The translations under genes were made by a program, and so were the position numbers. A stretch of 22,396 nt of DNA from a virus: positions 1 through 22,396 of the IMG/VR virus record IMGVR_UViG_3300010885_009767, one strand, 5' to 3'. Shown here piece after piece: positions 17,067 to 19,992 of this stretch. Each line of letters opens with the position of its first letter. Position 1 is the first letter of the stretch. The notes under the pieces were generated by a model. It ran no database searches, was not told where the DNA came from, and saw only the letters and a list, made by a program, of their open reading frames with translations.

Positions 17067-17212
17067 TTACAGCCCTCCTTCACGCACCATATCTTCCCGT
17101 GGTATACTTTAGCGAATGGACATTTACCTGCCCTGATGTCGTAGTAGGTTAGGTTGCAAGGTTGGTCTTTAGAAGGGGTTGGTGGTGGTGTTATCCCAGT
17201 CGTTGTCTGCAT
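17063..17212 (-). CDS. Small Cys-rich zinc-finger-like protein, 49 aa
   Basis: The ATG (17210-17212) lies inside the end of the helicase gene (44-nt overlap in another frame). The TGA (17063-17065) overlaps the next ATG as ATGA. After a Thr/Pro-rich leader (MQTTTGITPPPTPSKDQ), it carries C19, C31, C43 and C48 within LTYYDIRAGKCPFAKVYHGK and WCVKEGCK, a spacing that suits one zinc site. It fills the gap between helicase and the 78-aa gene. Its function is unknown. The leader may be only a by-product of overlapping the helicase frame. Confidence 0.68.
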   Translation of the reverse strand: MQTTTGITPPPTPSKDQPCNLTYYDIRAGKCPFAKVYHGKIWCVKEGCK

Positions 17213-18563
17213 AGTTTCTTAGGTCTTTAGGTTGTGGTAAAAAGCTGCTTCCTTGTGGTGATGATCCTGAGTCGCTGAAGGAGGTCATATTGGATGAATG
17301 CCGAAACTCTACCGTTCCTGTTGCCCCTTGTCGGTGCTTCTCGAATAGGTAGAATATCTCGTTGGTGTATGGTGTTCCGTTGTCGTCGTTCAGCCCGTAG
17401 TATGAAGGTCTCCAAACAAATGCTACCGTGTCTGCATCCTGTTCAAGTGATCCTGATTCTCGAAGGTCTGAAAGCATCGGTTTCTTATCGGCTCGCTTCT
17501 CTACCTCTCGACTAAGCTGGGCAAGTGCTATGATTGGTATTCCTAACTCTTTCTGTGCTGCTTTTATCGTTCGGCTTATCTCTGCGACCTCTGCCTCTCT
17601 GTTACCGCCTCTAAATCCCTCTATCGTCATCAGTTGAAGGTAGTCAATGATTACCCACTTACACCTCCCTTTGCGATGCTCTCGCTTAATTACCCTGATC
17701 GCTTCGTGTACTCCGCACCGTGCCTTGTCGTAGATCAGGAATGGTGACTTCTCAATCTTACCTATCGTCTGTTCGAAGGCTGCCAATTCAGGCTGTGTTA
17801 GGTTGCCATCCCGAAGTCTTGAAGATTGAATCTTATCTTCTGCCTCCATCAGGATTAACCGCTGGCACAGTTGAGAGGGGTTCATCTCAAGGTTAAAGTA
17901 GATGCCCGGTTCTTTGGATTGCATCCCGTGGAACAGGGCAAGTGCTGTCTTACCCATCGATGGTCTTCCGGCTATGATGATAAACTCAGGATGCCATCCA
18001 CCGGTGAACCTGTTGATTGATTGTATGCCTGTTTCTATGCCTGTGGTCTTCCCTGCTGCCGTTAATGCTGCTCGGCGGTAGTATGCCTCCCTTTCATCGT
18101 TTGTAAGCTGTAAGAGGTCGATTATGTTATCAGTCGTTCCTCCGGTGTCGAGTAGGCTGGTGAGTCTCTTGATTATTCCGGTAGCTGCCGTGTAGCCGTC
18201 CGAGGTGTTGTGCATCCCTAACGACTCCTCGGTGAGTATCTGCCCGATGCTTCTCTTGATGTTGGCATCCTTGAGGGTGGCGATGTACTCGTTGATCGGT
18301 TCGTTGTAGGTTAGGATGCTGCTCCAGTTGACAACTGTGGCGATGTATTTCGGATCGAATCCTTCTACCTCCTTAGAATACTGGAAGAAGTTAACTGCAT
18401 CAGGTGTCTTTCCTTTGGCGATTAGTGCCTCGATAACCTTGAATGCCTTGTTCGTTAACTCGTCCGTGAATAGGTTGGCTGATAGTTGAGGTAGTAGGTC
18501 TCGGTGTGTGTCACCCGTCATCAGTATGGCGATAAGTGCTTGCTCTGTTTTGCTTGTGTTCAT
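17169..18563 (-). CDS. dnaB: DnaB-type replicative helicase
   Basis: The 464-aa protein has the two-domain build of replicative hexameric helicases. An N-terminal helical domain spans about residues 1-135. A RecA-like C-terminal domain has Walker A GRPSMGKT (199-206), Walker B IIDYLQLM (305-312), and the H3/arginine-finger region LAQLSREVEKRADKKP followed by LRESGSLEQDAD. It unwinds DNA ahead of the phage fork. It stops at TAA 17169 and begins 2 nt after the initiator-like gene, the arrangement seen when a phage carries its own helicase with its origin-binding protein (as with P22 genes 18 and 12). No primase domain is fused. Confidence 0.96.
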   Translation of the reverse strand: MNTSKTEQALIAILMTGDTHRDLLPQLSANLFTDELTNKAFKVIEALIAKGKTPDAVNFFQYSKEVEGFDPKYIATVVNWSSILTYNEPINEYIATLKDANIKRSIGQILTEESLGMHNTSDGYTAATGIIKRLTSLLDTGGTTDNIIDLLQLTNDEREAYYRRAALTAAGKTTGIETGIQSINRFTGGWHPEFIIIAGRPSMGKTALALFHGMQSKEPGIYFNLEMNPSQLCQRLILMEAEDKIQSSRLRDGNLTQPELAAFEQTIGKIEKSPFLIYDKARCGVHEAIRVIKREHRKGRCKWVIIDYLQLMTIEGFRGGNREAEVAEISRTIKAAQKELGIPIIALAQLSREVEKRADKKPMLSDLRESGSLEQDADTVAFVWRPSYYGLNDDNGTPYTNEIFYLFEKHRQGATGTVEFRHSSNMTSFSDSGSSPQGSSFLPQPKDLRNYADNDWDNTTTNPF

Positions 18564-18565
18564 GG

Positions 18566-19327
18566 TTACTGGTCTTGATTAGCACCTGAGAAATGGACTC
18601 CGTTAGCAGCCCTGCTGAAGGTGGTTTGAATAGGTTTTGAAAAGGAGGTAGGTGAGTCAATGTCAAAGAATCCTGCCCAGTTACGTTCGATAGAGTTCTC
18701 TATTATCTTCATCGCCTTTGCCTTGTTTCCTTTCGATAGTTCTCTCAACTTATTGGTAAGTAGGTCAAGTGCTTTCTCGGTAGGTGTTTTCTTTATTCGT
18801 ATTCTCATGTCTATGAAGTCAACAAATAGTTCTTTGAGAATTGGATCGTTGTTGAAGTATTTCTTAGAATCAACCAACAGGACAAAATCACTTTTAGATT
18901 TTGGCTCTTTTGTTTTATTCTCTTTATATTCTTTATTCTCTTTATCCTCTTTAAACGTCTTATGAATATGGGTTGTGCCTTGGTCAGTGCCTCGGTCATG
19001 CTCTATACCGTGCTTCGGTCGTGCTATGGTCAGTGCCTCGGTAAATTTTACTAGGGCAATTACATTGCATTTGTATTGATTTATTGATGGCTGAACTACT
19101 TTTATAAGTCCATTATCTATCAACTCATCAAAGTGCTTTTTATAGGTTTTGTAAGTAGCGATATTTACTCCGTTCATTATCTGAGTAGCACTTAGCCCAA
19201 ACGATTCTCTCCAATGTAATTCATTCGCCACGGATAGAATGTAGAAATAGATTGATGTAGTCGTAGGATTAACCTTTTGAGGGTTGACACTTGCCCAGTT
19301 CCAATACCCATTGAAATATTCAAACAT
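18566..19327 (-). CDS. Replication initiator-like protein (lambda O-like organisation)
   Basis: The 253-aa protein has an N-terminal winged-helix-like domain (about 1-90: FYILSVANELHWRESFGLS, then ATYKTYKKHFDELIDNGLIKVV). The linker at 96-145 is charged. The C-terminal helical domain (about 150-235) ends AKAMKIIENSIERNWAGFFD, a pattern shared with DnaD/DnaT-type primosome domains. Phage initiators bind origin DNA through the first part and recruit helicase through the second. The linker is encoded by tandem 11-12-bp repeats and an AT-rich tract, so the origin probably lies in this gene. The helicase gene follows by 2 nt. It overlaps the 67-aa gene by 8 nt. A transcription regulator with the same winged helix is the alternative. 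Confidence 0.78.
   Translation of the reverse strand: MFEYFNGYWNWASVNPQKVNPTTTSIYFYILSVANELHWRESFGLSATQIMNGVNIATYKTYKKHFDELIDNGLIKVVQPSINQYKCNVIALVKFTEALTIARPKHGIEHDRGTDQGTTHIHKTFKEDKENKEYKENKTKEPKSKSDFVLLVDSKKYFNNDPILKELFVDFIDMRIRIKKTPTEKALDLLTNKLRELSKGNKAKAMKIIENSIERNWAGFFDIDSPTSFSKPIQTTFSRAANGVHFSGANQDQ
18890..18960. other. AT-rich tract, candidate DNA-unwinding element
   Basis: This stretch of the initiator gene is nearly all A/T with an A-rich minus strand. It contains a 13-bp direct repeat, TTATTCTCTTTAT, at 18915-18927 and 18933-18945 (plus strand), 18 bp apart. It adjoins the iteron array on one side only, as the AT-rich region does in lambda ori. In the protein it encodes a low-complexity Lys/Glu/Asn linker, which suggests the DNA sequence matters more than the amino acids. 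Confidence 0.55.
18975..19042. repeat. Iteron array, candidate replication origin
   Basis: Six tandem units of 11-12 bp run GTGCCTTGGTCA, GTGCCTCGGTCA, a degenerate TGCTCTATACC, GTGCTTCGGTC, GTGCTATGGTCA and GTGCCTCGGT (plus strand). The 16-mer TGGTCAGTGCCTCGGT occurs perfectly at 18981-18996 and 19027-19042. The units lie inside the initiator-like gene, next to the AT-rich tract at 18890-18960, as in lambda ori within gene O. They probably bind the initiator's N-terminal domain. Confidence 0.66.
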
Positions 19328-19523
19328 CGTATCCGAAATAAGTTAATATTTTTTCATCCAAATGCAATGCAGTTTCAAGTAGTAACTCTTCCATTGCCAT
19401 TTCTTTCTTAAAATCATCACTTCTAAATTCTGAATCTAAATGCCTCAATCTGCTTTCAATCCATAATGACTTAATCATTTCAATCAACTTATCTTTTTCA
19501 AGGTTCTCGATTTTTGCTTTCAT
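19320..19523 (-). CDS. Hypothetical protein at head of replication operon, 67 aa
   Basis: The protein begins MKAKIENLEKDKLIEMIKSL and is acidic and helical throughout, probably a short coiled coil. Its ATG comes about 12 nt after the T-run of the terminator hairpin, so its expression should depend on readthrough or on a local start. TATTTTTG (19529-19536) next to the ATG matches TAnnTTTG but lacks a -33 partner. It overlaps the initiator gene by 8 nt and may act with it. No family is recognised. Confidence 0.76.
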   Translation of the reverse strand: MKAKIENLEKDKLIEMIKSLWIESRLRHLDSEFRSDDFKKEMAMEELLLETALHLDEKILTYFGYDV

Positions 19524-19535
19524 AATTTCAAAAAT

Positions 19536-19643
19536 AAAAAAGCCCTATAAAGGCTGCGGTCAGAGCGGGTTAGATTTCTCTTTCCCATCGCAGCCCGTAT
19601 AGGGCAAAATGTTTTCTTATTATTCAGGCTCTGACCTCTGAAT
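19536..19643 (-). ncRNA. Structured RNA or leader with complementary loops and terminator
   Basis: The minus-strand RNA would start near 19643. Hairpin 1 is ATTCAG (19643-19638) / CTGAAT (19627-19622) with a 10-nt loop containing GGTCAGAGC (19636-19628). Hairpin 2 pairs GCCCTATA with TATAGGGC and GGCTGCG with CGCAGCC across a 2x2 internal loop (19605-19589 with 19558-19542). Its 30-nt loop carries GCTCTGACC (19566-19558), the exact complement of loop 1. Six T follow hairpin 2 (19541-19536), so it is an intrinsic terminator. A 9-bp kissing or pseudoknot pairing is predicted. It is either a roughly 108-nt small RNA or a leader that controls readthrough into the replication operon. I recognise no known RNA family. 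Confidence 0.6.
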
Positions 19644-19648
19644 CTTCA

Positions 19649-19656
19649 CAAAGATA
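19649..19656 (-). promoter_or_regulatory. Promoter-like -7 element for the structured RNA
   Basis: TATCTTTG on the minus strand is a perfect TAnnTTTG, placed so that transcription would begin at the foot of hairpin 1. It directly follows the terminator of the lipoprotein gene. No TTG is found 17-23 nt upstream, so only half of the consensus is present. Confidence 0.45.
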
Positions 19657-19734: not shown

Positions 19735-19992
19735 TCATTTAATGTAGTACGTACAGGTCGTAGTCACCGTGACTTTATTATTACCGACTCCGGTTGTAGC
19801 TGTGCTTGCCATTCCATCAGCTACCTTCCGTGCTTCCTTAGCTGTCAATTCGCATTTCTTAACGTAGGTGATCACTTCTGAATCGCTGTACTTCGACTCT
19901 GTGACTGTTTTGATGTTGAACTGGTAGCATGACTTCTCACAGGAGGTCAACGTAGCTACGATGATCGTTAGTAGGATGATTGCTTTTTTCAT
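19735..19992 (-). CDS. Small lipoprotein, 85 aa
   Basis: A lipoprotein signal is clear: MKKAIILLTIIVATLTSC, with basic start, hydrophobic core and lipobox L-T-S-C18. The mature part is about 67 residues with a Cys soon after the lipid anchor (EKSCYQFN) and a further pair, C47 and C80, that could form a disulphide in the periplasm. It is Thr-rich and probably beta. Phage-encoded small lipoproteins often block superinfection or alter the cell surface. It is the last gene before a terminator, so it belongs to the early/accessory transcript. A spanin-like lysis role seems less likely here, because no lysis genes are near. Confidence 0.76.
   Translation of the reverse strand: MKKAIILLTIIVATLTSCEKSCYQFNIKTVTESKYSDSEVITYVKKCELTAKEARKVADGMASTATTGVGNNKVTVTTTCTYYIK

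Follow-up and report, generated by a model that had tools for sequence, protein, structure and literature searches.

The c4 RNA of phages P1 and P7 controls an antirepressor operon; it lies upstream and carries loops complementary to sequence farther along the same transcript, and differences between alleles define immunity. In plasmids pT181 and pIP501, an attenuator is located ahead of rep. In phage P4, pairing of the CI RNA inside the leader brings transcription of the replication genes to a stop (PMC4825925). As for IsrK of Gifsy-1, two products come from one promoter, a short RNA that ends at a terminator and an mRNA made by read-through, and the former acts on the latter (PMC4825925). 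Antisense RNAs whose first contact is between loops typically have U-turns in these loops, and mutations there produce new incompatibility groups (PMC4485353).

We analyzed a 22.4-kb virus (the whole stretch of 22,396 nt is referred to as the window), whose gene content, including terminase subunits, is that of a tailed phage. Like the P4 CI/seqA-seqC leader, the element described here is an untranslated leader of a replication operon, with complementary segments in one leader (for P4, PMC4825925), and the premature termination that limits the replication genes in P4 (PMC4825925) has a predicted counterpart here. However, while P4 CI RNA arises by processing of a longer leader and has two separate segments to pair with, the present leader has one loop with one target in the terminator tip, the box, hairpin, and terminator fit within ~120 nt, and a gene comes right after the T-run. 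Lysogeny is a feature of the P4 system, with no evidence of it for the present leader. Compared with c4, the leader has its complement in a terminator ahead of replication genes and gives no match to the Rfam c4 model.

As in RNAI/RNAII, CopA/CopT, pT181, and pIP501, the design is one of predicted loop–loop kissing with replication as the presumed target; in the plasmids, the kissing is characterized by fast contact and U-turn loops (PMC4485353). Plasmid antisense RNAs come from the opposite strand, while the leader has both partners on one strand. IsrK belongs to other hosts, acts by switching on translation of an antirepressor operon, and has no Rfam-detectable relation to the leader. Fluoride-type riboswitches share a pseudoknot adjoining an intrinsic terminator in the leader, but in contrast to these there is no conserved ligand core here, and unrelated sequences share the plan. 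The earlier note on the window had pointed to P4 CI RNA and c4 RNA as analogues, which holds up well; by analogy, they are the nearest working analogues, alike in outline. We have filed the element under neither, because it matches no Rfam model and its action in trans is speculative. As far as Rfam shows, it is an undescribed family in a broader architecture class, although it may already be listed in a catalogue of viral structured RNAs that has reportedly been published.

Anatomy of the leader

All the features that the earlier note had listed are present (Table 1): the perfect TAnnTTTG box, the hairpin at the expected start, the second hairpin with its T-run, and the two 9-nt complements on the minus strand. 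It had placed both complements in loops, which is correct for the first, found in the loop of P1, but not for the second, which lies between P4 and the terminator 3′ arm, ~60 nt downstream of the P1 loop, with no free loop. An H-type pseudoknot and a kissing complex are both possible drawings of the pairing between the P1 loop and the terminator tip, which has 5–6 bp in P1, a crossing loop of 1–2 nt, 8–9 bp of loop pairing, and 0 nt to the 3′ strand of P1. The loop pairing does not overlap the terminator stem, and the two are mutually compatible. Computed without the pseudoknot, the folding energy of the 121 nt on the minus strand is −39.3 kcal/mol, with a z-score of −3.57 (0/200 shuffles as good). 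The first gene 3′ of the leader encodes a 67-aa protein that has no match in Pfam or PHROG.

Table 1. The predicted leader and the genes that follow it, in window coordinates
Feature	Position	Strand	Basis
Promoter −7 box TATCTTTG (Bacteroidota TAnnTTTG)	19656-19649	−	predicted from sequence; same place in relatives
P1, 5′ hairpin, ATTCAG (19643-19638) / CTGAAT (19627-19622)	19622..19643	−	at expected transcription start; covariation
Loop arm of kissing pairing, GGTCAGAGC	19636-19628	−	compensatory and mirrored changes in relatives
Terminator 5′ arm, P2 GCCCTATA and P3 GGGCTGCG	19605-19589	−	fold and covariation
P4, small apical hairpin	19567..19586	−	alignment; sequence and length freely variable
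Terminator-tip arm of kissing pairing, GCTCTGACC, exact complement of P1 loop	19566-19558	−	covariation
Terminator 3′ arm, P3 GCAGCC and P2 TATAGGGC	19557-19542	−	fold and covariation
T-run, six T, intrinsic terminator (predicted)	19541-19536	−	conserved in relatives
67-aa ORF, first gene 3′ of leader	19320..19523	−	ATG at 19523, 12 nt past T-run
Replication initiation O-like protein, winged-helix type	18566..19327	−	PHROG 678, E 2.2e-16
DnaB-like replicative helicase	17169..18563	−	Pfam DnaB_C, E 3.6e-75

A side observation, suggestive only, is that an alternative local hairpin (P2*, GCCC..GGGC, window 19589-19610) in the 5′ terminator arm excludes the terminator. Hairpins of this type are found elsewhere (GTCACC CTAT GGTGAC in locus L006, CCGCC CAAA GGCGG in L019), and some form of P2* folds in 29/29 distinct segments. 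Judging from sequence, P2* may be an antiterminator or a pause hairpin. We rejected it as a general antiterminator: this role is plausible in the window's family (−7.5 kcal/mol matched vs −5.9 swapped), but several other families have no evident form.

Relatives, covariation, and genomic position

Searching with the O-like protein yielded 22 viral contigs, in all of which the element is directly ahead of the O-like gene or of the small ORF preceding it. In a first alignment of 14 distinct copies, 93.1% of the cells are paired and 15/29 pairs have changed on both sides (0/500 shuffles). A covariance model, R1, was built without the loop pairing, which is thus absent from the aligning model. Together with an RNA pattern, R1 brought in 69 further viral loci, every one matching, and the resulting 70 distinct rows again show covariation, including in 6/9 loop pairs. 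The bias of the pattern was then removed by refetching loci through their downstream proteins only, before scanning with R1, which gave 83 distinct copies. In these, 22/29 pairs vary on both sides, with a score of 0.391 vs 0.132 when shuffled, and P1 is paired in 100% of the cells, all five of its modeled pairs varying on both sides somewhere. The earlier note had named an absence of covariation as refuting its proposal; covariation is present in stems and loop pairing alike, at a level reached by 0/500 shuffles. Structure, covariation, and position all support its central claim, a kissing-loop leader with a built-in terminator before the replication operon, and we regard a conserved leader of this kind as very probable.

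The least credible reading, to which we give practically no weight, is that a plain terminator adjoins a hairpin unrelated to it, the complementarity having arisen by chance. Although terminators are common between phage genes, this is already refuted by the covariation, none of the 500 shuffles reaching the observed value. In addition, a finder of the architecture, run over 84 loci (738 kb, both strands), returned 83 matches at the element vs 36 scattered elsewhere.

In total, the element is found just ahead of a replication or DNA-metabolism gene in >100 related viral contigs. As a rule, a phage record has a single copy; extra weak matches fall on the opposite strand at the same site, and such low-scoring matches to the covariance model are an artefact of the near-palindromic terminator. 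The −7 box of relatives has an essentially invariant TA..TT and is a perfect TAnnTTTG in 34/72, while there is no conserved −33 box upstream of their leaders. One 52-kb viral contig (L119 and L120, at 38204 and 3489), which is either a joined phage pair or a real double, has two replication modules, both preceded by a leader, and the two leaders carry different loop alleles, GGTGGAATC and GGTCGAAGC.

As the earlier note had said, the element has no recognized sequence: none of the 4227 Rfam models, which include c4 and riboswitches, reaches the gathering threshold in the window and 12 related loci, and the Rfam matches listed at the element are chance matches only, with E-values up to 10. A distant DNA search against cultured phages gave no match. 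The sole match of an exact 9-mer pattern search (L002) was judged to be chance, being inside a long coding ORF, and pattern matches in the genome collection (L116-L118) do not fit the covariance model. An R1 scan of 395 Bacteroidota genomes, a screen without positive control, gave no match, and DUF6291, one of the proteins encoded downstream of the element, is itself present in only 3/395; both results fit mainly lytic phages.

Few unpaired bases are conserved in the family: a U and an A in the loop arm, and an invariant CGA after P3. These bear on another suggestion of the earlier note, a leader sensing a ligand. On such a reading, binding of the pseudoknot by a small molecule, or by a protein (the replication initiator, for instance), would control the terminator. 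A pseudoknot with a terminator is a common riboswitch plan, and the few invariant bases would be in keeping with it, but a large conserved core is absent, the helices covary freely, the downstream protein families differ, and unrelated sequences share only the architecture. We therefore disfavor a riboswitch or protein-binding leader, which appears quite improbable.

As for the surroundings, all copies for which downstream sequence is available have an ORF that starts 0–14 nt past the T-run, whatever its gene family, and there is therefore no room for another promoter. The proteins encoded downstream are O-like winged-helix proteins or DUF6291 proteins, the latter bearing a replication-protein annotation in several cultured phages; small ORFs, nucleases, and a DNA methyltransferase, classes that were judged by eye, are less frequent. 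When phages are compared, similarity of their DNA often sets in at the promoter box and breaks off past the T-run (e.g., L088 vs L038). With such sharp borders between otherwise unrelated flanking genes, the element is therefore a self-contained cassette at a module border, and it appears from these alignments to mark a point of module exchange.

A complete cassette of promoter, RNA, and terminator would also suit a free small RNA of ~105 nt that acts on RNAs or proteins of the host or of rival phages, for example in counter-defense, its closeness to genes then being a matter of genome packing. We find this improbable, since the element repeatedly precedes replication genes, also in leaders of unrelated sequence and in cultured phages, and leaves no promoter space for the genes downstream. 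The stable small RNA mentioned in the earlier note may hold for the terminated product, but leaves the position unexplained. Two further candidates were rejected. A Type III toxin–antitoxin RNA (ToxI) does not fit a single unit with no tandem repeats, followed by replication and DNA-metabolism genes rather than a toxin, and a phi29-type packaging RNA does not fit a phage with large and small terminase subunits. On the other side of the leader, the window has an 85-aa lipoprotein-like ORF (MKKAIILLTIIVATLTSCEKSCY, 19735-19992) directly preceding it, and small lipoprotein-like ORFs are likewise found ahead of the leader in L005, L017, and L023; a role in superinfection exclusion or as a surface protein is possible.

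Alleles of the loop pairing and a proposed model of attenuation

The 9-bp loop pairing, which the earlier note had described as perfect, is strict in relatives for eight pairs, while the outermost pair is missing in 19/83 copies. The helix is 97.5% paired over the 83 copies, and the outermost pair accounts for all of its unpaired cells. The eight inner pairs show no G-U, mismatch, or one-sided change, two of them never varying and six varying on both sides, whereas P1, P2, and P3 repeatedly hold G-U. Accordingly, in the RDTCIFY-type set, a perfect 8-nt complement is present in 61/61 intact copies. At least 22 loop alleles exist, 22 of them within the 83-copy set, and the commonest (GGTCAGAGC, GGTAGTAGC, and GGTCGAAGC) reappear on divergent backbones. 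The loop arm has an invariant U-N-purine in the R1 family, and a similar motif is found in 15/18 loop contexts, including unrelated loops. This is possibly a U-turn, although the position ahead of it is usually a G rather than the pyrimidine of YUNR.

Since P1 and part of P3 were fixed by the search pattern, a first test of allele rates was biased, and it was redone on protein-retrieved copies only. On a backbone tree of 83 tips, we counted 37 allele switches. Loop columns underwent 8–9 changes each, against 9.4 for the unpaired linker and 1.5–3.8 for other helices, i.e., more than twice as many as the latter. Changes are mirrored in both arms, the counts along the loop arm being 10, 3, 0, 22, 9, 21, 0, 16, and 1. 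Neighboring phages can differ in two to three loop pairs with almost no other change; for example, L077 and L029 differ at 1/90 backbone sites, yet at two loop pairs. When 29 disjoint closest pairs were compared, 14/261 sites had changed in the loop pairing, which is about as fast as in unpaired sequence (80/1223 sites) and five times faster than in stems. From these comparisons, we claim that the loop pairing changes fast, in an allele-like manner, and with strictly Watson–Crick pairs. Selection for diversity of loop alleles is only suggested, because only six of the disjoint pairs change allele and the paired tests fall short of significance (P = 0.25 and 0.16). Quasi-palindrome repair as the source of the mirrored arms is disfavored, since P2 and P3, which are longer stems with closer arms, change slowly.

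The arrangement is that of an attenuator: the terminator lies between the promoter box and the replication gene, with no promoter after it, and the complementary segments are conserved by compensatory change. We infer that the promoter box and the terminator are in use, in which case the mRNA of the replication genes would have to pass the terminator; attenuation of these genes by the leader is probable. Transcription would start at P1, exposing the 9-nt loop, and the complement would emerge ~60 nt later at the tip of the intrinsic terminator and pair with this loop. Transcripts would then either end at the T-run as structured RNAs of about 105–110 nt or continue into the replication genes. 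The loop pairing, perfectly Watson–Crick and with many interchangeable alleles, would be the specificity element. Terminated leader RNA of the same allele would use this loop pairing to compete with the one formed within the nascent leader, and this competition would set transcription past the terminator, resulting in copy control or in immunity to phages with the same allele.

Trans action and the direction of the effect are speculative, and we hold self-recognition in trans through the loop pairing only tentatively, at slightly less than an even chance. The reading as a whole, an RNA–RNA attenuator of the replication operon with the loop pairing as its specificity determinant, probably for self-recognition in copy control or immunity, seems to us evenly balanced. 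Among the functions proposed in the earlier note, immunity or copy control is favored by the allele-like pairing. The manner in which the pairing might alter termination is not evident, because the pairing is clear of the terminator stem.

The main rival to self-recognition is a kissing terminator acting only in cis, in which the pairing serves only to stabilize or time the terminator on the transcript that carries it and sets a fixed leak into the replication genes. Both arms are always in one RNA, the geometry suits an intramolecular H-type pseudoknot, and the kissing pairing is compatible with the terminator. Moreover, we found no other target of the loop in the phage DNA, matches to the loop 8-mer being at or below chance with no consistent site, the strict test on disjoint pairs is not significant, and a purely cis pairing could also stay perfect. 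What this reading leaves unexplained are allele-like jumps as fast as the change in unpaired sequence and without G-U intermediates, the contrast with the other helices, which are slow and tolerate G-U, and the presence of the same alleles on divergent backbones. We thus consider it unlikely, though a serious competitor.

The same plan in unrelated sequences

Many DUF6291 loci with no R1 match share the plan of the leader in unrelated sequence, i.e., a 5′ hairpin loop complementary to a segment just before the terminator 3′ arm, followed by a T-run and a start codon. In viral contigs, the gene behind such unrelated leaders is a DUF6291 or an O-like replication gene. When 74 upstream clusters were scanned with a finder of this plan, complements of at least 6, 7, and 8 nt were found in 43, 36, and 27 clusters, respectively, while dinucleotide shuffles gave 3%, 1%, and 0.3%. 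Among the positive clusters, the R1 family makes up the majority, and ~15 are outside it. Cultured phages carry the plan in the 150–200-nt gap before the replication gene or its preceding small ORF. This is the case for Flavobacterium phages tooticki6-1 and hemulen9-1 (GTGAGACG/CGTCTCAC) and 11b (CGGGCAGG/CCTGCCCG), Olleya phage Harreka_1 (GTGGTGG/CCACCAC), and Polaribacter phage Danklef_1 (GGTGGAA/TTCCACC), and Flavobacterium phage elemoC_14-1A has the plan with a longer gap. In Cellulophaga phi13:2 and phi19:3, a 9-nt complement unreported by the finder was seen by eye. The plan was not seen in Riemerella RAP44, Vibrio 1.265, and one faecal contig.

Early-gene regulation by lytic Bacteroidota phages is little known, and the leader provides a conserved, testable RNA control point for their replication; with the plan present in cultured phages, it is testable now. 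A bolder possibility, which we put forward with some doubt, is that the leaders form an undescribed, widespread class of RNA self-recognition in Bacteroidota phages, with dozens of alleles selected to differ, such that only same-allele phages within one cell would sense or silence each other's replication operon. If true, mostly lytic phages would have an RNA counterpart to the incompatibility groups of plasmids or to arbitrium. Should the alleles set who recognizes whom, they would constitute a same-strand RNA system of immunity or copy control whose simple code could be read from the sequence, and which could supply an orthogonal family of RNA switches.

Two other kinds of leader were observed upstream of DUF6291 genes. 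A recurrent one of another design (GGGGCTAGG..GAAAGCCC..TTCGTC), without loop–terminator complement, is found in L242, L246, L250, and L254, and comes possibly from non-Bacteroidota phages. In a Bacteroidota genome (L286, ~1230-1490), the DUF6291 gene is behind the same plan as in the phages, with GATTGACA / TGTCAATC as the complement and a hairpin ahead of the second arm. This leader, missed by the finder, was spotted by eye, and the locus is probably a prophage.
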